Assembly: GCA_032622095.1 (NCBI GenBank)
Contig: CP136061.1
Span: 191,338,369-191,402,368, forward strand
Direction: 5' to 3'
Source: Siphonodentalium dalli
Lineage: Eukaryota; Mollusca; Scaphopoda; Gadilida; Siphonodentaliidae
Length of the DNA stretch: 64,000 nt
A model generated the notes under the pieces. The model was not told where the DNA came from. It did no database searches and was given only the letters and a program-made list of their open reading frames with translations. Below are positions 1,779-60,428 of the stretch, piece after piece (positions within the stretch are counted from its first letter, which is position 1; each line of letters opens with the position of its first letter). The position numbers and the translations under genes are program-made.

Positions 1779-1904
1779 TTATTTTGGGCATCAGGCTGCA
1801 TGTTTGAGATTCTACTGGCATATGCTGTGCTTCCCACGCTTGGTTGGAGATGGTTATTCTTCATGTCATCCATTCCAATGTTAATACTCAGTCCACTAAT
1901 AATG
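1779..1904 (+). CDS. SVOP-like transporter, exon coding TM5-TM6
   Basis: 126 nt, phase 0 at both ends: acceptor ATTTTTCAG|TTA, donor ATG|GTGAGT. It encodes 42 residues beginning LFWASGCMFEILLA and containing LPTLGWRWLFF. The pattern FW-xxG-x-FE-x-LLA followed by P-(S/T)-LGWRWL matches the fifth and sixth membrane segments of SVOP-family carriers. Upstream exons (the first four helices with the GR/GD-rich loop) are not in the window. The polypyrimidine tract of the acceptor partly overlaps the right end of a repeat element that stops about 11 bp upstream. Confidence 0.88.
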
Positions 1905-12240: not shown

Positions 12241-12369
12241 TGGATACCAGAATCTGTAAGATATCTAGTCGCTGCTGGACAGAAGACAAAGGCAATTGAG
12301 GTTCTGAAAAGGGGCGCTCGGCTCAATAAAGCAACACTGCCCCCTGGAGAGTTAGAAGAAAGTAAAACG
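12241..12369 (+). CDS. SVOP-like transporter, exon after TM6 and central loop
   Basis: 129 nt, phase 0 at both ends: acceptor TTTTTCACTTCAG|TGG, donor ACG|GTATTT. The 43 residues begin WIPESVRYLVAAGQKTKAIE and end in a hydrophilic loop with LPPGELEESKT. PES-x-RY directly after TM6, then a G-Q-x-x-KA-x-x-VLKR helix, is the standard start of the large central cytosolic loop in SV2/SVOP and sugar-porter-like MFS proteins. The donor GTATTT is weaker than those of the other exons. Confidence 0.88.
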
Positions 12370-12655: not shown

Positions 12656-12994
12656 TGCTTTAGAAAATCACAAAAATTAATCTCTTTATTTGATCTATTT
12701 GACCAGTAGACAGGCTATCAACACATCCCTGATATCCGACTGCCATGTCATTGAAGCAATTAACACCCATGATTAATCTGGGGTTATACAATCAACATTG
12801 TTCACACAGCAGGGGCCCCCGGACAATAACACAACAAACACCTTCTAAGTTCTATTGAACAGGAACACCAGACTGAACAAAGGTGACCTGTTCTCAATTA
12901 ACTCAATTAAGCCCTGAGGTTATATGAAACTGCCATTCAAGTTTATTGTCTGAAAGAAATAAAAAGAAGCACATGTTCTAGCTTTAAACTTTAG

Positions 12995-15845
12995 ACGAAG
13001 AAACCCTGGCAGTAGAAGTCGCCATTCGCAATGCCAAGACTGCCATCGTCGCCACATATAACCCGCCAAACACAGACCTCAGCAATGCCTCCTTCAAACA
13101 ATTCACATCAACCCACCGCCACTGCATCTTCATCGGAGACTACAACGCGAAGCACACCTACTACGGCTGTAAAGATACCAACAGAAACGGTGACCGAATG
13201 TTCAACATCATCGAAGATCTTGATCTACTCATACTAAACAACATAGATGAACCAACACATCACCACGCGGCGACCAACAAATGGGACATCCTAGACCTAG
13301 CCATTGCCACTCCATCCATCGCATCTAAAGGAATCATGTGCTATATCGGAGACGACGTATCCAGCGACCACCTACCCGTACGCATAAGATCCAGCAATGC
13401 CTCAACCGATCGCCACCCGAAAACCTTCCGCCGCAACCTAAATAAAGCCGACTGGGACAGTTTCCGACAGCAACTCACCAACAGCATAGACAATTCACCC
13501 ATCACATCAACCAGCGACATTGACGCGACATGCCAGCACCTATCCCAAACCCTCGAATCAGCCCTAGATACAGCATGCCCGAAACAGCAAGTCAACACCA
13601 CAGCATGGCAAGTCTCCCCCGAAACTCTGAAAATGATCCGACTTAAACGCAAGCTACGAAGACTCCAGCAGAAAAACCCAAACGACATGTACTACCGAAC
13701 TCTTTACAACAACATGAACAGACAAGTCAAAACGGCAGTCAAAAAAGAAAAACAAGCATCCTGGCATCGGTCGACAACCGAACTCGGCGATAAAAGAATG
13801 AACAGAAACTTCTGGAGTAACTTCAAATCCCTTACCGGCACAGGAAAAAACAACAACAGCACAGAAAAACCCCTCAAAAAAACCGATGGCAGCCTGACCT
13901 CAGGAGACAAAGAAAAAGCAGAAGCCTTCGCCGACAACCTTCAAAAAATCCACAACACCCACCAAGGCCCAGCCTACGACGACGCCTTCAAAGCAACTGT
14001 AGAAAACCACATCAAAGACAACCCCGACCTCTTCAAACCACTTCCAAGTACCACCAACGACCACGATGATGTCTTCCCCGTAGCATCTCCAATCACACAA
14101 GACGAAATCGCATCTAACCTAAAGAAGGGAAAAGGCAACTCAGCACCAGGCAACGACAGCATCACATACTCCATCCTACGACAAGCCCCTCCAGCCTTCT
14201 TCGCCAGACTACTCCTTCTATTCAACGCCTGCCTGACCATTGGATACTTCCCAACAGCATGGAAAACCGCCGTCGGTATCATGATACCTAAGCCAGAAAA
14301 AGACCGCACCATTCCCAACAACTATCGACCCATCAGCCTCCTCCAATGTACCGGGAAACTATTCGAACGAATTATCAGCAGCCGACTACGAGAGCACCTT
14401 GAATCCTCCAACTTCTTCAACCTGTGGCAGCGCGGCTATCGACAAGGCAAAGAAGGCATGGAACACATCGTTCGACTAGCTGAAGACGCCCGACTATCCC
14501 TTGGCAAAAACTGGTTAACAGCTGCAGTATTCCTTGACGTTGAGAAGGCCTTCGATTCCGTATGGCACGACGGCCTAAGATACAAGTTCAGCCAGCTCAA
14601 CATCGCCCGAAAATACACACGACTAGTATCCTCTTTCCTATAAGATCGTCAACTCAGCGTCCGCATCAACAACGACACATCCAGCCCAGTATTCCCACGC
14701 GCCGGAACCCCACAAGGATCAGTACTCAGCCCACTCCTCTTCCTGATATACGCCAATGGCATACCCACCAACCCAGGAAACAACGTAGAAATCTCACAAT
14801 TCGCCGACGACCTAGGACTCTGGACAACACACAAAAACCCCAGGATCCTACAAAAACGATTACAAAAGACCCTCGACGACTTATCAACATGGTGCTCTAG
14901 ATGGAGAATAAAACTCAACGCCAAGAAAAAACAACTCATCATATTCCACCAGAGAAAAACAACACAGACTATCAACATCAAGATAGACAACGAGACCGTT
15001 CAACCATCCAACCAAGCCATCCTACTAGGAATCACCCTCGACCAACGAATGACCTTCGCCGCGCACATCAAAAAAGTCGCCAACAAAGCCAGAAAAAGAA
15101 CAAACCTGCTAAGTTGTCTCAGAGGTACCGACTGGGGAACCAACAGCCAGACCATCATCAACCTCTTCAAACTATACGTCCGCCCAGTAATGGAGTATGG
15201 CGCACCCATCATAGCAGCAGCCTCCAACAGCTCAATCGAAACCCTGCAGAAAGTCCAAAACAAAGCTCTCCGCATCGCTCTACATCAGCCAATCTTCACA
15301 CCAATCCAAGCCCTCCACGACGCAGCAGACATGCCTAGGATGAAACATCGACTAACCGACCTCAGAAACCAGACCCTCACCAGAATTGACAACAGCCCAC
15401 TCATCCAAGAACTCCATCTACGAAATCAGCTGCTCTCCACCAAAAAGACCAAGTCCATCCTAGAAATCGACAGCACCGACAGACCCATCTAGATCCCATA
15501 CAACCGTCAACCAAGCCAACCAACAGCCAAATCACCAGCCAGCCAATAACCTCACCAGCCAACGCCAATACAGCCCCCAACAACACCACCAACCAAGCAT
15601 CCAAGACGCATCAGCCTTAAAGCCAGCCAACCAACAGCCACACCAACCAGACATCCAGCCTAAACCAAGCCTCACATCCCAACAGCCTCGACTCCTCCAC
15701 CACGCTTCCACTGCACTGCTTTGCCTCCAAATACAACAGCCTCAAAAATCGATCTTCATCGAATATATCAAGAAAGGGTGAAGGGAATTGCACAATGCGT
15801 TCCGACCATCCTGCCCGGCCTGCGGCCGGAAACTACACAACAACA
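12995..15845 (+). mobile_element. 5'-truncated Jockey-like LINE with 15-bp TSD
   Basis: The exact 15-bp direct repeat AGCTTTAAACTTTAG flanks the element at 12980-12994 and 15846-15860, giving an insertion of 2851 bp. Its base composition (C- and A-rich on the + strand, few T) differs sharply from the AT-rich surroundings. It contains one frame from the apurinic endonuclease domain through reverse transcriptase, then about 350 bp of 3' UTR ending in a GC hairpin (CCCGGCCTGCGGCCGG) and an ACACAACAACA tail. A 5' truncation with a TSD of this size is the usual product of target-primed reverse transcription. The copy lies in an intron in the sense orientation of the transporter. Confidence 0.9.
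12997..15492 (+). pseudogene. LINE ORF2: endonuclease / reverse transcriptase, one nonsense codon
   Basis: A single frame of about 830 codons is broken only by TAA at 14641-14643. The endonuclease part retains IFIGDYNAKHTYYGC (GDxNAxH motif) and SSDHLPVRI (catalytic SDH); the first part of the domain is missing because of 5' truncation. RT motifs in order are NNYRPISLLQCTGKLFERI, FLDVEKAFDSVWHDGL (motif A aspartate), GTPQGSVLSPLLF and FADDLGLW (catalytic ADD). A thumb region with VRPVMEYGAP and LQKVQNKALRIAL follows. YFPTAWKTAVGIMIPKP and YRPISLL are typical of the Jockey clade. The stop lies between motif A and the GTPQGS motif, where relatives read FL-x-DRQxSVR, so a one-base change is enough to explain it. 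Translation could not give full RT from this copy. Confidence 0.88.
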
Positions 15846-22575: not shown

Positions 22576-22732
22576 ACAGAGAAGAGAGCACAATTTTGTG
22601 ACCTGTTTAATAGGAAGTATCGAAGAGCCACCTTTCTTCTATGGTTTATGTGGTTCAGTACAGCATTCAGTTATTATGGAATGGTGTTGGCGGGGACTGA
22701 AATCTTACAGAAAAGAAGCCATTCTTCTGTTG
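22576..22732 (+). CDS. SVOP-like transporter, exon coding loop end and TM7
   Basis: 157 nt, enters at phase 0 (acceptor TTTTTTTTTCCAG|ACA) and leaves with one spare base (GTTG|GTACGC). The 52 codons include TEKRAQFCDLFNRKYRR, then LLWFMWFSTAFSYYGMVLA, then TEILQKRSHSSV. The DLF...LLWF-x-WF-S/N-AFSYYG-x-VL stretch is the most diagnostic SVOP-family segment here (start of the C-terminal six-helix half). The lumenal loop of vertebrate SVOP between TM7 and TM8 is considerably shorter here. Confidence 0.92.
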
Positions 22733-25530: not shown

Positions 25531-25605
25531 GAAGCTGTCATTGTAAGATGTTGACAAAAGAGAATTTCATAGCCATGATATTGGCAACACTTGGTGAATT
25601 TGCAG
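25531..25605 (+). CDS. SVOP-like transporter, exon coding lumenal loop and start of TM8
   Basis: 75 nt, enters with two bases completing a Gly codon (acceptor TTTGTTTTTAG|GA) and leaves with one base (GCAG|GTGAG). It encodes SCHCKMLTKENFIAMILA followed by TLGEFA. Vertebrate SVOP has a cysteine-bearing loop, then Y/F-x-x-LL/IL-x-TL(S/G)EFPG at this position. Here the G of EFAG spans the next intron. Both flanking introns are phase 1, which supports the small exon. Confidence 0.88.
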
Positions 25606-28295: not shown

Positions 28296-28489
28296 GGATA
28301 CCCATAAATTTTTTTCTGCTTGATTGGATTGGACGGAAAAAGACTGGTGCCTTTAATATATTCTCGACAGCAGTTTGTTTCTTGCTGTGTCAGTTGGATG
28401 TGTCCATCCATTGGCTCACGCTGTTTATATTTGGCGCTAGGGCATTCGCTTCATCAACATTCAACTGGATATATATCTACACTGGTGAG
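28296..28489 (+). CDS. SVOP-like transporter, exon coding TM8-TM10
   Basis: 194 nt, enters with two bases completing Gly (acceptor TTTTTTCAG|GG) and leaves at phase 0 (GAG|GTAAGC). It contains FFLLDWIGRKKTGAFNIFST, the MFS D-x-x-GR(K/R) loop between the eighth and ninth helices, then a hydrophobic helix, then FIFGARAFASSTFNWIYIYT and GE. The vertebrate equivalents are IIDRLGRKKT and [20 protein letters not shown]. TGE replaces the usual TPE. Confidence 0.92.
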
Positions 28490-31553: not shown

Positions 31554-31643
31554 CTCTATCCAACGACGATAAGGACACTTGGTTTAGGAGCTTGCTCTTC
31601 CTGGGCCAGAGTTGGTGCTATGGCCACACCTTTTGTGGCACAG
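31554..31643 (+). CDS. SVOP-like transporter, exon coding loop and TM11
   Basis: 90 nt, phase 0 at both ends: acceptor CACTCAATTACAG|CTC, donor CAG|GTATAT. It encodes [20 protein letters not shown] followed by [10 protein letters not shown]. This is the SVOP/SV2 consensus (V/L)YPT-x-x-R-(A/T)-LGLG-x-(C/S)-S-x-x-AR-x-GA-x-x-(T/S)PF-(I/V)AQ, with no gap. Confidence 0.93.
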
Positions 31644-34647: not shown

Positions 34648-34761
34648 GTTTTGATGGAACATTCTGTTGCGTATGCAGTCTGGGTCTATGGAGGAGTGTG
34701 TTTCATCAGTGGAGTATGTGCCTTATTATCTCCTATCGAGACCAAAGGCAGGGAAATGCCT
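34648..34761 (+). CDS. SVOP-like transporter, exon coding TM12 and ETKGR tail
   Basis: 114 nt to the first donor (phase 0): acceptor ATTATTTTAAG|GTT, donor CCT|GTAAGT at 34762. It encodes VLMEHSVAYAVWVYGGVCFI followed by SGVCALLSPIETKGREMP. The last helix followed by (L/S)PIETKGR is the conserved C-terminal end of SVOP-family carriers. The last 38 nt of the exon with the splice donor and adjacent intron are repeated six times (34725-35034), so alternative donors 52 and 104 bp downstream would lengthen the exon by 52 or 104 nt without meeting a stop codon in frame. Donors 4-6 lie beyond an in-frame TAA at 34867-34869. Confidence 0.92.
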
Positions 34762-35034
34762 GTAAGTTCATTACATGTTATCTCCTATCGAGACCAAAGG
34801 CAGGGAAATGCCTGTAAGTTCATTACATATTATCTCCTATCGAGACCAAAGGCAGGAAAATGCCTGTAAGTTCATTACATGTTATCTCCTATCGAGACCA
34901 AAGGCAGGAAAATGCCTGTAAGTTCATTACATGTTATCTCCTATCGAGACCAAAGGCAGGGAAATGCCTGTAAGTTCATTACATATTATCTCCTATCGAG
35001 ACCAAAGGCAGGGAAATGCCTGTAAGTTCATTAC
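34725..35034 (+). repeat. Six-copy 52-bp tandem repeat of exon end plus 5' splice site
   Basis: TCCTATCGAGACC recurs at 34731, 34783, 34835, 34887, 34939 and 34991. Every copy keeps ATGCCT|GTAAGT, so six identical donors lie at 34762, 34814, 34866, 34918, 34970 and 35022. Copies differ at only two positions (CAGGG or CAGGA; ACATG or ACATA), so the array is young or homogenised. The repeated unit comprises the exon codons from SPIETKGREMP plus 13-15 bp of intron. Confidence 0.95.
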
Positions 35035-35630
35035 TTCATTTATCTCGCCTGAGTGAAGTCATTCAAGTGCAAGACCACATAGGTTCAAATTGACGTGGAT
35101 ATTTTTATACTGGATACTGGATTGACCTCGGCTTTCCATCCATCCGAAAATCGCTTCCTCCGTTTTTGCCATCCGTCCATCCATTCGTCAGGGCAGATAT
35201 CTCAAACACCAGTTGTCGGATCTGAATGAAATTTGGTATGGATGTTCACTATTATGATGGCATTCAACAGTGTTCAATTGTTTTTTCCGGATTTTCCATT
35301 TTCGAGCTATGCATCTTTGTTTATCTGGAAATGTTGTTTTTTTCCGTCTGAGCAGATATCTCCACCACAGGTTGACGAATCTCAATGAAATTTGGTATGG
35401 ATGTTCACTACTATGAGGGCATTCAACAGTGTTTAATCGTTTTTTTTCATCTCGGTTTATTTGGAAATGTTATGTTTTTGTCCTCCAAGCAGATATCTCC
35501 ACCACCGGTTGAGGGATATCAATAAAATTTGGTATGGATGTTCACTATTATGATGGCAATCAAATTGAGTGTTCAATCGATTTGTTCATAATTTCCCTAC
35601 TACAGTTATTTATCTTTGTTTATATGAAAA

Positions 35631-36282
35631 CTAGCAGGTGGACCCGACTTCGTCCGGGCTGTTTCCCCTCTGCTTTTCGGCGAATTGCGCGATTTGATCT
35701 TGAATTGTCCATTTTGAAGGTCAAGGTCAGGTGGGGTAACGATTTGACCCGTCCAAAACACTGCCCGGACAAAAGTACCAGACAAAAGTACCCATCGAAA
35801 TCCATCCGGTTTTACCCGATTTGACCTCAAATTGATAATTTTGAAGGTCAAGGTCAGGTCAGGGTCACGACTCGACCCGTCCAAAACACTCAGTGGACAA
35901 AAGTAACCCCACGTATCAAATTTCGTCGAAATCCCATCAAAATTCGCGATTTGACCTTGAATTGACCCAATTTCAAGGTCAAGGTCACGTCGCACGGACA
36001 AACGAATAGGCTTACGACACTCCCCATACGAAAGTATCCCCAGACACTAATTTTCATCGAAATCCCGTGATACTCGGGCGTTCGACCTTGAAATGACCCG
36101 ATTTCAAGGTCAAGGTCACATCGCACGGGCAAATTAACAGGCCCATGCCATTCCACGGCCGAAAGTAACCCCACATACCAAGTTTCATTGAAATCGGTTT
36201 GGTCGTTTTCGAGTCCATTGCGAACACACAGACAGACAGACACACAGACAGACACACAGATCTTCCAAAAATATATAATAGA
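35631..36282 (-). mobile_element. Canonical non-autonomous Helitron 1
   Basis: Read on the minus strand it starts TCTATTATATATTTTTGG and ends CACCTGCTAG, with the hairpin CCCGGACGAAGTCGGG 10-12 bp before the end. On the + strand the left junction is GAAAA|CTAG. CTAG 3' end, TC 5' end, subterminal hairpin and insertion after A are the Helitron hallmarks. The body has diverged 125-150-bp units with AAGGTCAAGGTCA and ACCCGTCCAAAACACT, and an ACAGACAGAC stretch near the 5' end. Confidence 0.8.
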
Positions 36283-36829
36283 CTAGCCGATGAGCCCGAC
36301 GTTGTCCGGGCTATTCAAAAACCAAATTTCAAGTCGATAGCTCTACCCAGCCTGACGTTGTCCGGGCTATTCAAAAACCAAATTTCAAGTTGATAGCTCC
36401 ACCCGTTTCCGAGATCTCGTCTGCGCATGCGCGAAACTGGCATCGCACGGGCTCGGCGACCCGATAAAATTTGTATCCGGGGCAAGATACATTCACATAC
36501 CAAATTTCAAGTCGATAGCTCCACCCGTTTCCGAGATCTCGTCTGCGCCTGCACGAAGCTGGCGTCGCACGGGCTCGGCGACCCGATAAAATTCGTATCC
36601 GGGGCAAGATACATTCACATAGCAAATTTCAAGTCGATAGCTCCACCCGTTTCCGAGATCTGGTCTGCGCATGCGCGAAGCGGGCGCCGCACGGGCTCGC
36701 CAATACGACAACGTCGACCGCCTGGTCAAAAAGTTTCGTCCCGATCGGTAGAGAATCGTAGATTTGTATTAATGACAGACAGACAGACATACAAACATAC
36801 AAACAGAGGTCTTCAAAATATATATGAGA
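36283..36829 (-). mobile_element. Canonical non-autonomous Helitron 2, tandem with Helitron 1
   Basis: + strand left junction AATAGA|CTAGCCGATGAGC, right junction ATATGAGA|TGTTGG. The minus-strand 3' hairpin is GCCCGGACAACGTCGGGC, then TCATCGGCTAG. The body carries three units of about 125 bp with CAAATTTCAAGTCGATAGCT, CCGTTTCCGAGATCTCGTCT and GCACGGGCTCGGCGACCCG. It is flanked by Helitron 1 on one side and by T of element C on the other, as expected from tandem insertion at an A/T junction. Confidence 0.8.
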
Positions 36830-37214
36830 TGTTGGGGTTTTTTCCCCGTCCAAGCCGATATCTCACCCATACTTTTGTCAGAATGAATTTGCCACCGTGA
36901 GGGTTTGCCAGCACCGCCGGTGCAATCTCTTGTTCATAGTGAATGAGTTGGTTAATGTTCTTTTGATTGATGGTCTTTTTAATATATTAGTTCTTTTTTC
37001 TTTATTTTATTGACACGAAAACTATAAATGTTATCAAACAAAACAAAGCATTATTCCCAATTATAGGTAATAAGAACAAAATTAATGTGTTCAACTGTTG
37101 CACTAATTACCACAAAATGGGACAATTTCTTGTGTTGGGATGATAGGAAGGCAGTCAGTCACCAAACAATAACATTTATCCAGAGTTTGGCCTTTTTTTC
37201 ATGAGTTTGGCCCA

Positions 37215-38030
37215 TTTGGCCATTCCGTCGGGAGGACTATAGTTATGACCCTCATCCGTGCGTCCATCTATCAGTCTATCCAAATCTGTATTCTCTCATT
37301 TTCTGGTAATTTTTTTTTAAAGCTTGTCACATATATTAACCAGAATGATAACCTGCGCACCTGCAATTTGAGCTCGGTAAGACTCATTTTGGTGGAGTTA
37401 TTGCCATTTTACGACATAGAATCGTTCATCCTGGGAACGCATCTTTTGTCCGAACCTAAATTCCAGTCAATTTTTAAAAAACTTGTCCCAGATGTCAACC
37501 AGCATGGGAACCTGCGCACCTGCTATTTTGAGTTCAGTCGGAGTTATTTTTGCAGAGTTATTGCAATTTTTCATATAGAAATGTACATCCTGGGATGCAT
37601 CTTTGTCCGAGTCTGTATTCTGTCATTTTCCAGTCAATTTTTTAAAAACTTGGCAAAGATATTAACCATCATTGGAACCTACGATTCTGAATTTGGGTGG
37701 ACCCATTTTGGTGGATTCTTACCATTTTTGCTGATTTGTCTTGATTTTCAGCTCGTTAGCTCAATAACTTTAAGAAATATTGACCGATTTTAACAATGTT
37801 TGGCATAGGAGCTGGTTTTCAAAATATCTTGAACGAGTTCGAAAACCAGATATGTTTGTTTTTTTTATCTACTGCAGTTATGGCCCTTAGTTTGCCAATT
37901 TTTCTTGATTTTCAATATTTTAGATTTATTCTAAACAAAGCCAATCCTTCAGTTAGCCACCATGTCAGGGGACATTGTGGTCGGTCGACCTTTTATTTCA
38001 TTATATGATGCAGTTTGTCCCTCCTTAAAG
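37215..38030. repeat. Satellite units (CAGCATGGGAACCTGCGCAC type), HINE-like body
   Basis: GGGAGGACTATAGTTATGAC and a short GTCC block start the array. Three units of about 175-180 bp follow with TTGCCATTTTACGACATAG, TTTTGTCCGA and AACTTG(T/G)C(C/A)CA. The 182-codon + strand frame across it is read-through of the repeat, not a gene. Confidence 0.6.
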
Positions 38031-38149
38031 GATAAATTGAAACTCCTATATAGGTAACAGAAACTAGTTGAGCTGATTTGGTATGGAGATTTTTTTTACT
38101 AAGAATTTTATATATTATGAATTTGATGTTTCAATTGTGAGGAACATGT

Positions 38150-38310
38150 TATCTCTTAAAGGCCCACTTAATGTTTGAATCCCCAGATGACATTATATAC
38201 AACATATTCTATATTATATACCATTTGAAAGAGAAAATTCAAAATATTGTATTTTCAACTTATCTGGCCGAATAAACTGTAAAGCCACTGGACTATTACT
38301 CTAAATGCTG
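38150..38310. repeat. Interspersed repeat, inverted partner of 28780-28935
   Basis: See landmarks in the partner entry. Starts TTAAAGGCCCACTTAATG; the far end was not identified. Confidence 0.5.
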
Positions 38311-38439
38311 GGTGAATAACTCTAGATATCCTAGTTTTGAATTTTTATGCATTTTAGGTAAATAAAGGGGGAGACCTGTGTGTGAATCTGGGAATCTCTA
38401 TCACTTGGTGGATAGTCCTAGGCCACGGCTCTTCTGGGT

Positions 38440-38750
38440 CCTGGTGGAATAGATATATTATTTTTTTACACTTGGCACAGATATTAAGTACCATGGGAAC
38501 CTGTGCACCTGTCATTATGAGGTCCGTTCGACTTTTTTTTGGTGGAGTTATCCCCCTTTTTCGACTTCGAAAATTTTCTCAAGATGCATAATTTTGTCTG
38601 AGCTTTCATTCCTACATTTTTCAGTCAATGTTTTTGAAACTTGGCACAGATATTTAGTATTATGGGAACCTGCACATCAGCGATTATGAGGTCTGTCCAA
38701 ATTTTCTCAAGATGCATTATTCTGTCCAATCTTATATTCATACATTTTTA
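38440..38750. repeat. Two satellite units (ACTTGGCACAGATATTTAGT type)
   Basis: ACTTGGCACAGATATT, ATGGGAACCTG and CTCAAGATGCATAAT recur at about 180-bp spacing. Related text is at 11640-11700 and 39940-40060. Confidence 0.55.
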
Positions 38751-39310
38751 TGTTTACCCATACCATAGTATGGTAAACATAGTGTCGTTGCCCGGATTGA
38801 CCACTCGTCGTCCGTCTGTCTGTCTGTCTGTTTGTCCGTCTGTCTGTCCGAAGACACTTTACGAGTAATGCGATAACTCAAACATTTTCTATCCAATCGA
38901 AACCATATTTTGTATATGGATTTTTCAATCCAAAATACAGATCGAGTTCGAATTTGGGTTTGATCCGAGATTTTGTTACAGAGTTATGGCCCTTTTTCAA
39001 CTTAGAATTCACGCATTCTGCCATAACTCAAACATTTTTTATCTGATCGGAACCAAATTTTGTATGTGAGTTTCTCGGCCCAAAATACAGATCGAGTTCG
39101 AATATGGGTTTGATCGGATTTTTTTTAATGGAGTTATGGTCCTTTGACATATAATTCACACATACTTCGATAAATCAACCATTTTTCATCTGATAGGAAC
39201 CAAATTTGGTATGTGAGTTTCTCAACTCAAAATACAGAACGAGTTAGAATATGGGTTAGATCCAATTTGTTATACCAGAGATATGGTCCTTTTTCAACTA
39301 AGAATTATCC
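38751..39310. mobile_element. Hairpin/GTCT/satellite element (HINE-like)
   Basis: Hairpin TATGTTTACC..TACCATAGTATGGTAAACATA at 38752-38784, then a (GTCT/GTCC)n block at 38810-38850. Three units of about 135-145 bp carry AACTCAAACATTTT, TTTTGTATGTGAGTTTCTC, CAGATCGAGTTCGAAT and GAGTTATGGTCCTTT. Confidence 0.65.
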
Positions 39311-40500
39311 AATTATAACCCAAGTAACTTACAATTAATGAATACCTGCTTCTCTGTGATAGAGAGATAAAAAGACAATATGGTTTATTGAGAGTTATTT
39401 ATAGCCCTCATATGTTAGCTTTGTATAAGAGACACAGTTAGTGAATTATTGGATAAATTGATTTAGCTATCTTTTTAACCACAACTTATCCATGTGAATT
39501 TATTTAACTAGACCAATGGAGCTCTCTAAGTCCTTGGATGATGGGACTACATTGGATCAAACAGGGCAGAGATAGGTGATTTAACCCCTTTTACCCATAC
39601 CATGTCTTTTCACCTTTTCCATTAAATAAATAATTATATTATTTTGATATCTCACATGGCAATTTGCAACAACATGAATAGAACTGCTTACACTATGATA
39701 GTGGTGACAGGCTCTAGAGTTTAGATGTTATATTAACCCTTCTTTATTGACTCATACATTCCAATAATTTGTGTTATTACTGGTTATTATGTACATTTGT
39801 CATATACTACTTTAGATCATAACAGTACACTCTATAATTCAACATTTAAAGATTATGATTCTGATCATAACAATTTACTATCGCCAAGGGATGGGTTAAA
39901 CATCTGCCGATCGTAATCGGCCTCTCGTTCAGTAAATGTTTTGTAAAACTTGGAACAGATATTTAGTACTGTGGGTACCTGTGCACCTACGATTATGATG
40001 TCTGTCCAACTTTTTTTGTGGAGTTATCCCCTTTTTTATTTAAACATTTTCACAACACTCAAATAAGTATGTCAGTCTGTCCAACTATGTGTGTGTGTGA
40101 CTTACTTATCCAGAGCACAACTTGAGTGCGTAAAACATTTCCGCCACTGGCTGCAATGTGGTCTTATTCCATGCCAACAAATAGTCAATAACACTGACTG
40201 TATAGAAATAATCGGGGACTCAAACATTAAGCATGCCTTTAACATAGTTAGGCTATTGTGAAGGTTCGAGTCATGAATGGAGTGAATATACTGAGGATAT
40301 AGCTTATTTAATGGCTTTTTAATGACATTTTGGCCTTTGGACTTAAAAAAACATGCATTTATTTTGGTATTTTCAACATGATATGGATGAGTGTGAATCA
40401 GAGTATTTCTAGCTTGATGGCTATCTGAACAGTCCGTGACTTTCTTGTTTCTTTGTGCTCTTTGTCTAATAGTAACCTGAATTTATATTGGATGTTGCAG
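39311..40500. other. intronic sequence; one satellite unit
   Basis: A single unit like 38440-38580 lies at 39935-40060. No exon is recognised; the remainder is AT-rich. Confidence 0.4.
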
Positions 40501-40702
40501 CAATCTGTTGGCTGATCATTGCCCTGCTCCAAGAGTAGATCATGGCACAGAACCTACAAGGCTGCTAGTAAGGATATGCAAAGCTAAGATTATATCACAG
40601 ACCCTTGAAGGCAGCGACAAGAAGACACATCTCAAACTTCCCAGCTCTACTCTAAACAACAGGCCAGATTTAAGAGTTCAAAATCATTCTTCTTCCAAAT
40701 AG
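40501..40702 (+). CDS. Probable terminal exon of the SVOP-like transporter
   Basis: The acceptor GGATGTTGCAG|CAATCTGTTGGCTGA gives, after the first donor at 34762, the short tail PQSVG and a TGA at 40513-40515. That is comparable with the few residues after ETKGRALQ in SVOPL. In another frame the same exon is open for about 66 codons to TAG at 40700-40702 (starting NLLADHCPAPRVD and ending LRVQNHSSSK). That frame is reached in phase only from the third repeated donor at 34866. The second donor would give a tail of SICWLIIALLQE. No protein homology is recognised for the long tail; transcript evidence is needed to say whether it is coding or 3' UTR. Confidence 0.5.
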
Positions 40703-40819
40703 TTGAGAAAAGTCCTATTATCAGGGGATAATCTTGAAGAGCAAATATCTGAAGATAGTGATTGGCACTTGTGGCATATGAGAGGCCAAATTCACATTTA
40801 TTAATAATTGCACTGAAGC

Positions 40820-41936
40820 TAGTGTTGAAATGATGTCGACTAGTTGACGACGACTAGGATTTTGGCAATAATCGATTAGCAATATCCTAGTCGACTAATC
40901 ACCATATTTCCCAGAAAGGTATAGATAAAAGTTTCATTGGTAGCAATCATTGATGCATGCAGTAAACTTCCATATTCATCATCGCCCGATTGCGATGGAA
41001 CCCAAAATACGACCACCTGGTCGCTGTTACCGTATTATAAAAACATGTTTCTGATCTAGATATTCAGTCGTCACGCGAGGGATAGCGACTTGTTACAGTA
41101 TGTTGTTTTCCGGAAAAACGGGAAACTTTTGATGTCTCATTGATTGGAACAACCATTGTTCGGCTAAGTCGCAACAGCAAATTCTCTGTAAACATTCTCA
41201 TATTCAAAATGCGGCACCTTTGATCTATACTATTCTAAGTCCGACGTTGCAATAGATATGTTGTTTTGATGACGCTGTGACTCATACGAGATCAAACCAA
41301 TTCCGACGTGACTACGTGTTCACTTCACTCCTGACTGGGCGCTGGTATAGTAATGTATACATTGTGCTGGATTATGCCAATATATCAGTCAGATTTCTAA
41401 TCAAGTCATTGACTCATTGTCATACAACCACACTCCCGTAAAGTAGACCAACGGTTACATCGTATATAGCAGAATAGCTCCCCAAACATTGCGTAAAATG
41501 TTACAGTTTTGATATTATCGGGCGAAAAATAGATTGCGCATGTGCCGGAAGTTAGGAAGCTTGTTGCATCCAGTGGTTTCAAATTCTCTCTATAGTATTT
41601 TATGACCGTCACCTTGTCGGGATCGCTCATGAACATAACTTCAATGCGGACGTTTACACCAATATTATATGATATGGGTTATGTTCATGATACTTACTTG
41701 TCACTATAGGCTGTCAACAGTGATAAATATAATGATAAATATGCATGTTTTAATAAATTTATGATGACAAACAGCTGTGAAATGGGCAGATCATCGATGT
41801 CTCAGAAAATACTTTGATAATCCTGTGTGGGTTTTTGATCGTTCTATATAGAGAGTAATTTTTGACTAGTCGGCTAATAGTTGGCTAAGGGCTGCTGACT
41901 AGTCGACTACGAAATACTCTAGTCATTTCAACACTA
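40820..41936. mobile_element. hAT-type element, TAGTGTTGAAATGA termini
   Basis: 14-bp TIRs TAGTGTTGAAATGA / TCATTTCAACACTA. The flanks ACTGAAGC (40812-40819) and ACTGAAGT (41937-41944) are an 8-bp TSD with one mismatch. Subterminal repeats of GTCGACTAGT / ACTAGTCGAC occur at both ends. 1117 bp, no transposase frame. It lies just downstream of the transporter terminal exon. Confidence 0.8.
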
Positions 41937-58097: not shown

Positions 58098-58190
58098 ATG
58101 TTCAAAAAAGGAAAGGGCAAAAGTGGCAAGCTGCAATCAAAATCGGACAAGAAACAGCAAGATTATCAGTTTGAACAGTTTTTGAAAGAG
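58098..58190 (+). CDS. CEP162: CEP162, coding exon 1
   Basis: 93 nt, ATG at 58098 (context GAAAATGT), donor GAG|GTAAAG, phase 0. It encodes a Lys/Gly-rich start (MFKKGKGKSGK) followed by QQDYQFEQFLKE. The (Q/E)-QFEQF-(L/M)-KE motif near the N-terminus, followed in the next exon by SVSS-x-(E/D)SF, is characteristic of centrosomal protein of 162 kDa, a microtubule-binding protein at the distal end of centrioles that promotes ciliary transition-zone assembly. No upstream in-frame coding extension is apparent. Confidence 0.8.
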
Positions 58191-58453
58191 GTAAAGGAAC
58201 TTACACAATTAATTTCTCATATATGGTAATGGCTCTTCTGCTGGGGAACAGGACTACCCACCTGTGAGCATGAGTGGATTCGTCTACATGTACATTGTAT
58301 TTCGCCTCGGTCGGAGACAAAAAAAATCATAAATAATTGTTATCAATATCGACAACAAATACAATTTACAAATACATTATTGGACTAGACGAGTTAATTG
58401 CACAAGTACATCCTAACGCTGTTTACTTTTAATGTGTATATATCCTCACTGAG

Positions 58454-58878
58454 GCTAATGGAGTCGTTGTCGTAACGTTTTATACATAGATGCACACCGT
58501 GTGCATTTCTGTATACGGTACATAAATGCACACTAGTCTTGCGTAGTGTCACGTGACAGGGGTCATGGTCGTAGTATTTTCTACATAAATGCACACGTGT
58601 TGATATTTTTTGTAAGTTCATTTTCTTCCGTTCATCGATCAAACAACCATGCAGTTCTTTCGGTCCCTGTTTAATATAAGATCAATATGTGACCGATGAT
58701 CAATTTTATTGCAGTTTCGTCATTATGATAAAAGAATGACTACTAGTATCAGAACTTCGGAAGAAAAATAGTTATGAATTGCAGCAGACGGCAATTATTT
58801 ACGGCAACATTTCAATCTCGCGCCCACTGAGACTGGTGTGCATTTATGTATAAAACGTTACGACAACGACCCCATAGC
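58454..58878. mobile_element. 9-bp-TSD MITE, family GCTAATGGAGTCG, in CEP162 intron 1
   Basis: TIRs GCTAATGGAGTCGTTGTCGT and ACGACAACGACCCCATAGC continue through AACGTTTTATACATA and ATGCACAC. The TSD CTCACTGAG is exact at 58445-58453 and 58879-58887. Mutator-type by TSD length. An internal repeat of TACATAAATGCACAC occurs in both halves. Confidence 0.82.
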
Positions 58879-59124
58879 CTCACTGAGAGACAAACATAAG
58901 GCAGGGTTTCCACAGGTGAAAATAAATGGGGAAATAAATAACATGACAGGGCGACCATTGTTCGTTCTGTTGCGAGAAAATTTTGATATACATACAGGTG
59001 TTACTGAAAAGTAGCCATATCCTTGCACCTGAGATATTCGCAAAAAAATCCAAAGCTACGTATATTGCACAAGTTGGTCATTTCTGTGGGTGCAATAAAT
59101 CTGTTGTTGGTACCGGTACCCAGA

Positions 59125-59240
59125 GCATTGCCATTCATCGGAAAGCTCTCACTGAGAACAAGCCATATTTCCGACTAAATCCTGATAAGTTACCCATAAT
59201 TCTGCTGTGGTTAAGGAGTCGATTATGTAGGGCATTATTG
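59125..59240. mobile_element. TA-flanked MITE (CAGTAATGC family), 5' truncated
   Basis: Begins in the central GCCATTCATCGGAAAGCTCT hairpin and keeps the right arm AAGTTACCCATAATTCTGCT through GGGCATTATTG|TA. It ends 26 bp before the CEP162 exon 2 boundary. Confidence 0.75.
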
Positions 59241-59266
59241 TATCTATTGATAATTTGCAATTTCAG

Positions 59267-59381
59267 TCTGTATCATCAGAAGAGTCATTTGATGCTGCAA
59301 ACCTGTCAAAATATTTTGATCCCAAAGAAAAAAAAGAATCACCTTGGTGGCTTCAAGAAGATGATGACAGCGAAAGCACTG
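59267..59381 (+). CDS. CEP162: CEP162, coding exon 2
   Basis: 115 nt, enters at phase 0 (acceptor TTGCAATTTCAG|TCT) and leaves with one base (ACTG|GTATTT). It encodes SVSSEESFDAANLSKYFDP, a short Lys-rich linker, and SPWWLQEDDDSEST. The (S/T)PWW-x-x-(E/D)DD signature after an SVSS-(D/E)-(D/E)SF segment is the CEP162 N-terminal signature. The intron upstream (1.08 kb) holds two MITEs. Confidence 0.87.
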
Positions 59382-60246
59382 GTATTTCATTCAAGATACT
59401 TTGCAGAGTATTGGAAACCATTTTTTAAAAAGAGAACGATATTATTATAGTGGTTTAAAATTGTTTGTATTGACTACAATAAATATCATAATATGCATAT
59501 CACATTGAGGTTAAGCATCTAGATAAAAATGAGAAACTGACACGGTGACACCTACATGTACGGGTTTAATAGGTATAACCACACTGTTTTTAGATTGAGA
59601 TATGTGACTCATTTTCTAAATTTAGCTGTTTGCACAATTCACATACTGCATGATCAAGGTTTAGCCTGTTTGTGATCAAGTATTAAATCCAGTTTTGTTT
59701 TAAAAACAGACATAGCTCATTCGAGCTTTTAAATTCTATCGACGTAATTTAGAAATGACTGGGTTTTTTTTTGCGACCCAAACATCGTGTTCAAAGTTGT
59801 ATTTTTTATGACATCAGTGCATCTTTCGGGGACATATAATGCTCATAAAAGGTAGTTCAAGTGTTTATCAACCTAGTTCGATACTGGTAATTCAAAAGCG
59901 AATATTATTAGGTGTATTTTGGAGTGCAAACTGCCAAATGGCATTAAATATCTGTTTTTATTTACATATTATATCCAGGCTTATAATATACCGGTAGACT
60001 TATACATGTAGTGAGAAATGAGTCAATGTGTATTATGCATGAAACTTAACTGTGCAATTTTGTGTTATATGCAGTGATTTCATGCATACAACACAAAATT
60101 TCACCTGTAGTAAAGTGCTGAGAAAACTTATTGTCAATCATGCAGAATTATTTATATACTTTTTGTTGCAAATAGTATCTGGTGAGGGAAGAGATTCCCT
60201 ATCCCCTAGTATTTTTTTATATAAAGGAAAATATCACTGTTTTCAG

Positions 60247-60428
60247 AATTGGTACACGGAAAAAGTTTCATGAAGAGTAAGACTCCTGGCCCCCAGCACA
60301 GTACTCCAATAAGTGAAGACAGGGTTGTCAGTAAGACTGCAGTGTTACAGGACACAGATGAGTTTGATGTACCAGATGCAAAGAAATCATCAAAACATGA
60401 TGCTCAAAAACAGAGGGGCAAAAATCCT
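60247..60428 (+). CDS. CEP162: CEP162, coding exon 3
   Basis: 182 nt, enters with two bases completing a Glu codon (acceptor CTGTTTTCAG|AA) and leaves at phase 0 (CCT|GTAAGT). It encodes LVHGKSFMKSKTPGPQHSTP followed by a charged, low-complexity segment with QDTDEFDVPDAKKSSKHDAQ. G-KSF-(M/L)-KSK directly after the PWW segment is retained in CEP162. The remaining exons (the long coiled coil) lie outside the window. Confidence 0.82.

Follow-up and report, generated by a model that had tools for sequence, protein, structure and literature searches.

A tandem duplication over the 3' border of an intron, with one extra copy and a new intron shown by RNA sequencing, is described for potato RdRp in the available part of the report (PMC4974935), and intron gain in Drosophila is ascribed, in the accessible portion of its source, to tandem duplication of an AG/GY proto-splice site (PMC2891723). 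For 5' splice sites that compete within one exon, the available text on estrogen receptor alpha quotes a U1 footprint that takes in 23 exonic and 12 intronic nt (35 nt in total), gives the authors' belief that U1 binds both members of a pair of sites separated by 33 nt, and describes the mechanism favouring the intron-proximal 5' splice site as not known (PMC6002489). According to the excerpted part of a further paper, short inter-site sequences can reverse this proximal preference (PMC1877881). Searches of an open-access library turned up no account of a single 5' splice site arrayed in many copies, which does not mean that none exists elsewhere in print. Here, we describe such an array in the scaphopod mollusc Siphonodentalium dalli, in a 64,000-nt stretch of assembly GCA_032622095.1 (contig CP136061.1, positions 191,338,369 to 191,402,368 of the forward strand; hereafter the window, to which positions refer unless a contig is named), where it lies on the 3' border of the last known coding exon of a transporter gene. 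We consider that it reflects a recent minisatellite amplification across the exon-intron border at which the last known coding intron begins, in an otherwise intact SVOP/SV2-like transporter gene, with no selected switch needed, and we give this reading a probability of roughly 0.7.

The interval 34726-35034 holds, according to Tandem Repeats Finder (TRF), 5.9 copies of a 52-bp unit (98% matches, score 590), which form a head-to-tail array beyond chance and a putative minisatellite. The frayed end of copy 6 aside, the copies differ only at unit position 28 (G/A) and at the last unit position (G/A). Position 28 reads G G A A G G across copies 1-6, with A in copies 3 and 4, and this variant amounts to E or K in the ETKGR frame; the last position reads G A G G A in successive copies. 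In the TRF register each unit consists of 36 nt of exon end and 16 nt of intron start, to which the 38 + 14 nt split given by an earlier interpretation made from the letters alone (the sequence-only reading) is equal once the register is moved by 2 nt. The donor CCT/GTAAGT (the slash marking the splice junction) is identical at all six sites, the final exon base falling at 34761, 34813, 34865, 34917, 34969 and 35021. TRF and a copy-by-copy reading thus bear out the earlier description of a six-copy unit with two variable positions and identical donor cores. The exon, the array and its donors are as follows.

34648..34761, + strand: last known coding exon, with the region of transmembrane helix 12 (TM12) and ETKGREMP, bounded by acceptor TTATTTTAAG and donor 1, entered and left in phase 0 (paralogue alignment)
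34726..35034, + strand: tandem array, 52-bp unit x 5.9 (TRF and copy-by-copy reading)
34759..34767, + strand: donor 1, CCT/GTAAGT, ancestral donor, phase 0 (homologous donor in the C4 paralogue)
34811..34819, + strand: donor 2, copy, phase 1 (sequence reading)
34863..34871, + strand: donor 3, copy, phase 2, with the in-frame TAA at 34867-34869 inside its GTAAGT
34915..34923, + strand: donor 4, copy, with an in-frame stop 48 nt 5' of the junction
34967..34975, + strand: donor 5, copy, with an in-frame stop 100 nt 5' of the junction
35019..35027, + strand: donor 6, copy, closest to the remaining intron, with an in-frame stop 152 nt 5' of the junction

The unit 23-mer CTCCTATCGAGACCAAAGGCAGG matches the 2.23-Gb genome (9 contigs) six times, always at the array and never on the opposite strand, and its reversed-pattern control has no match in the genome; likewise, no second locus was found in a genome search with a 481-base probe of the array region. 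Both negatives apply to the genome as searched, which lacks some stretches where further copies might lie. That the copies are almost the same speaks for a recent origin or for homogenisation. Copies that are 98% alike might also have led the assembly to inflate or collapse their number. Such an artefact is very unlikely in our view, given that the variants at both positions follow no regular order from copy to copy, that the array (309 bp) is shorter than a usual long read, and that the 9 contigs look chromosome-scale.

Which of the six donors came first is indicated by a paralogue. A genome search with the array-bearing exon scored in two places, the host locus and contig C4, where an exon at 242484314-242484424 aligns at 49% identity. 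The C4 exon ends PIETKGREMK/GTAATC, which places its donor (AAG/GTAATC) at the homologous residue and in phase 0, as at donor 1. Because residue and phase agree, the intron predates the array, and the alignment identifies donor 1 as the ancestral donor and donors 2-6 as later copies. On a matrix built from the host gene's acceptors, the best acceptor of the paralogue (C4:242486755, rank 1 of 499) leads to a ten-residue tail, DIGHEIPVAH-stop.

The reading frame enters from upstream of the exon and meets no stop up to 34866, and donors 1, 2 and 3 leave phases 0, 1 and 2, as the sequence-only reading had stated. Since 52 leaves a remainder of 1 on division by 3, three phases arise automatically, as they would with any unit not divisible by 3. 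The TAA at 34867-34869 is where that reading had placed it, although it lies within donor 3's own GTAAGT rather than just past donor 3; the TAA of GTAAGT is a stop only in the phase met at this donor. As this stop precedes donors 4, 5 and 6, these donors and unspliced RNA would end the protein at the same point regardless of the last exon, and the predicted product is identical for all three (REMP plus 35 residues), a common outcome that the sequence-only reading had overlooked. The exon would measure 114, 166, 218, 270, 322 or 374 nt with donors 1-6, respectively. The exon-junction rule of nonsense-mediated mRNA decay (NMD) sets a distance of about 50-55 nt, under which donors 5 and 6 are candidates for NMD and donor 4 is borderline.

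The products of donors 1-3 depend on the next exon, for which the following candidate had been proposed.

40501..40702, + strand: candidate last exon, giving QSVG-stop in the ancestral phase and, in the donor-3 phase, a 66-residue frame (40502-40699) followed by TAG at 40700-40702

When 40501 is taken as the exon joined, REMP is followed by QSVG with donor 1 and by 29 residues with donor 2 (17 from the array and then SICWLIIALLQE); with donor 3, 101 residues follow (35 up to and including the junction codon and a further 66) before the TAG. The joins reproduce the tails proposed earlier (PQSVG-stop, 12 residues and about 67 residues), the long one measuring 66 residues. From these tails the sequence-only reading had derived a built-in switch, in which donors 1-3 yield three selected C-terminal tails via the 40501 exon. 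The three phases are real, and a frame open through donor 3 is uncommon under the null models given below. Moreover, TAGTAAC and CTAAT stand 5' of the 40501 acceptor, and 40440-40780 is single-copy DNA within a repeat-rich stretch. On a matrix of 20 acceptor sites from both genes (20 of 23, three having been missed by the string search and one placed loosely), 40501 holds rank 6 among the 309 AGs up to 41 kb, and its score of 7.4 lies between the leave-one-out extremes of the true sites (-5.1 to 16.0).

However, the same matrix ranks 40501 only 19 of 1407 AGs overall, and the matrix of the host gene's own 11 acceptors ranks it 61 of 1091, with a score of 4.8 that falls inside the leave-one-out span of true sites (1.0 to 12.9). 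Acceptor strength, tried as a means to locate the true last exon, gave a clear answer for the paralogue but not for the host gene. A genome search turned up no relative for the 66-residue frame, nor did Pfam give a match, and 108 of 1354 regional AGs open at least 66 codons in some frame, with 2.5% doing so in the donor-3 frame. The first AATAAA past 40501 stands at 41752, with a variant AGTAAA at 40961. No SVOP-like tail was recognised behind the listed AGs that score above 40501, and a comparison of 40401-41200 with the downstream DNA of the paralogue gave a best E of 0.41, taken as chance. Since the paralogue's best candidate tail has ten residues, a short tail in the host gene would not be odd. 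Overall, 40501 as the joined exon is possible but unproven. Three tails as the main explanation were set aside on the automatic phases and the relative-less long tail, and the many acceptors similar to 40501 in strength and the paralogue's candidate ten-residue tail also speak against a selected switch, which we regard as the least probable of the explanations considered.

The edges of the array bear on its origin.

34726..34732, + strand: TTATCTC, left flanking direct repeat, the first 7 bp of the array
35040..35046, + strand: TTATCTC, right flanking direct repeat, just past the array end

TTATCTC is the longest word common to the two array edges compared, and short edge repeats are the trace expected from slippage or unequal exchange. 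Arrays with a period of at least 10 cover 9,113 of 84,000 bases (10.8%) around the host gene and 2,787 of 59,999 around the paralogue; because tandem arrays are frequent around the gene, one that falls on a splice border is not far-fetched. The array most likely arose by recent copying slippage. A neutral slippage array competing for U1, the other option of the sequence-only reading, fits best with the flanking repeat, the array cover and the ancestral status of donor 1.

Several observations weigh against this explanation. With five units removed, the two TTATCTC copies would stand 54 nt apart, two more than the 52-bp unit, so that seeding would also require a small indel, and a 7-bp repeat found in a comparison of 75 x 59 bases is modest evidence. 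Furthermore, the frame stays open to donor 3 in 2.5% of trials with shuffled units in which the donor was kept, in 5.1% or 9.6% when the peptide was kept and synonymous codons were drawn (depending on whether the remaining intron bases were random or real), and in 14.7% with any twelve codons of the host gene; none of 11 other donors of the host gene, arrayed likewise, remained open to donor 3. The open frame is mildly unusual but not decisive, and it would likewise be expected if arrays adding an early stop were removed. Finally, all six donors are still perfect though one would suffice, but given the likeness of the copies this says little.

Under the slippage explanation, slippage or unequal exchange seeded by the TTATCTC repeat would have copied the exon-intron border five times. 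The array might be tolerated because it lies past the last membrane helix and the ETKGR motif, the transporter core being the same with any donor. Given that the 52-nt spacing exceeds the 35-nt footprint, all six sites could hold U1 together and would then compete. The intron-proximal rule alone would point to donor 6, whereas exon definition and inter-site sequences could lead to donor 1. Where introns run to several kb, as in the host gene, a 114-nt exon may be preferred by exon definition to one of 374 nt. We infer that most functional mRNA comes from donor 1, with some leakage to the other donors. Use of donor 1 would give the ancestral protein, and use of donor 2 or 3 an altered short tail. 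Donors 4-6, or no splicing, would give a protein that ends at the donor-3 TAA after 35 array-coded residues, and, provided that the exon-junction rule applies to this species, transcripts from donors 5 and 6 would enter NMD.

A different outcome of the same competition has to be weighed, in which the array acts as a copy-number dimmer: as the intron-proximal one of comparable 5' splice sites is preferred, splicing would have shifted away from donor 1 and towards the later copies, most transcripts would carry the donor-3 TAA more than 50 nt ahead of the junction and be degraded or encode the 35-residue tail, and array length would tune transporter output. The stops 48, 100 and 152 nt 5' of the junction with donors 4, 5 and 6 are in line with this idea, as is a spacing above the quoted U1 footprint. 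On the other hand, exon definition may prefer the 114-nt exon over the 374-nt one. The proximal preference that the dimmer relies on can also be reversed by inter-site sequences, at least in the available part of the source (PMC1877881). The dimmer shares a possible slippage origin with our best explanation, and the two overlap to that extent, but we consider it unlikely. Slightly less likely still is its specific form, in which the six U1 sites are bound together and the proximal copies win; with the in-frame TAA supplied by the GTAAGT of copy 3, growth beyond three copies would lead to a fixed 35-residue tail or to NMD, and array length would set transporter output.

The host gene was traced over twelve exons in one reading frame of 448 stop-free codons, with GT-AG borders and matching phases at 11 of 11 junctions of the model. 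Five exons lie 5' of the window and seven inside it; the following precede the array-bearing exon, all according to the gene model.

1779..1904, + strand: upstream exon LFWASG...LIM
12241..12369, + strand: upstream exon WIPESVRY...ESKT
22576..22732, + strand: upstream exon TEKRAQFCDLF...SSV
25531..25605, + strand: upstream exon SCHCKMLTKENF...FA
28296..28489, + strand: upstream exon GIPINFFLLDWIGRKK...YTGE
31554..31643, + strand: upstream exon ...VAQ

In Pfam the product hits Sugar_tr (1.9e-33 over residues 50-446) and MFS_1 (9.4e-32), and its relatives in the PDB include OCT1 (5.3e-35 over residues 57-448) and SV2A (1.6e-23). This fold match across most of the protein identifies the gene, on sequence similarity, as an MFS transporter of the SVOP/SV2/SLC22 type. 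We provisionally call it SVOP-like because its exons align at 29-66% identity to a human SVOP sequence; the PDB list for the 448-residue product holds SV2 and SLC22 chains and none named SVOP. No paper on SVOP in molluscs was found in the open-access literature. Outside the genome, 295 of the 448 residues were used to scan viral contigs; none of the 3 pattern matches obtained was confirmed as a relative.

Other features of the two gene copies are noted here. The acceptor of the array-bearing exon (34648) ends in AAG, and the model's ten other acceptors end in CAG or TAG. The intron between the exons at 12241-12369 and 22576-22732 holds two retrotransposon-like frames (12988-15492, + strand; 551 and 282 codons) parted by one in-frame stop at 14641-14643, which by eye resemble the endonuclease and reverse transcriptase of a non-LTR (long terminal repeat) retrotransposon. 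The single host exon at 28296-28489 corresponds to two exons in the paralogue (C4:242476565-242478185), split near NICSSR/PVLTLF, so that an intron was either lost in the host gene or gained in the paralogue. TRF also finds an intron array in the paralogue, with a 30-bp unit in about 21 copies (98 percent matches, C4:242462678-242463311).

Downstream, the next gene lies on the same strand.

58099..60428, + strand: next gene, MFKKGKGK...QFEQFLKE (read by eye)

Its start, near 58.1 kb by our reading, sets the limit for the last-exon search, and the encoded sequence may resemble the N-terminus of CEP162. The exon at 59267 (SVSSEESFDAANLSKYFDPKEKKESPWWLQEDDDSE), which has no Pfam match, begins at the strongest acceptor on the 20-site matrix and was assigned to this gene by its position and neighbours. 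The exon ending at 60428 carries the only other CCT/GTAAGT on the + strand of the window.

How, then, does the array compare with described systems? Relative to SVOP, SV2 and SLC22 transporters, with which it shares family membership and matches over most of the 448 residues, the host protein is ordinary, the amplification being confined to the 3' border of its last known exon. As in potato RdRp (PMC4974935), a tandem copy spans a splice border and working splice signals are duplicated along with it; however, as far as the available part of that report goes, the potato gene duplicated a 3' border once, whereas the host gene carries a 5' border sixfold with no sign of a gained intron. The Drosophila AG/GY model (PMC2891723) likewise derives splice signals from local tandem duplication and has NMD act as a buffer. 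In the accessible portion of that source, the copied piece needs both AG and GT for a unit-length intron, whereas the 52-bp unit looks donor-only: on the host gene's acceptor matrix, the CAG of the unit scores -5.6 as an acceptor, whereas true sites score 1.0 to 12.9 when each is left out in turn. On this score the creation of an intron within the array was rejected, and since the unit lacks a good acceptor, we do not class the array as intron gain.

The likeness is also clear to an exon with two 5' splice sites of equal strength, where the sites compete and yet are spaced for joint U1 binding. In that exon, however, the two sites are unrelated, whereas the array offers six identical sites in near-identical context as a regular ladder. 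It could thus serve as a natural ladder for testing the intron-proximal preference; each choice of donor marks the mRNA by its own exon length, so that the whole distribution of choices could be read. Tandem duplication of splice borders being already known, the array represents an ordinary mutational event in an unusual place, and it illustrates how slippage can multiply a splice border while the coding part of the gene stays unbroken.

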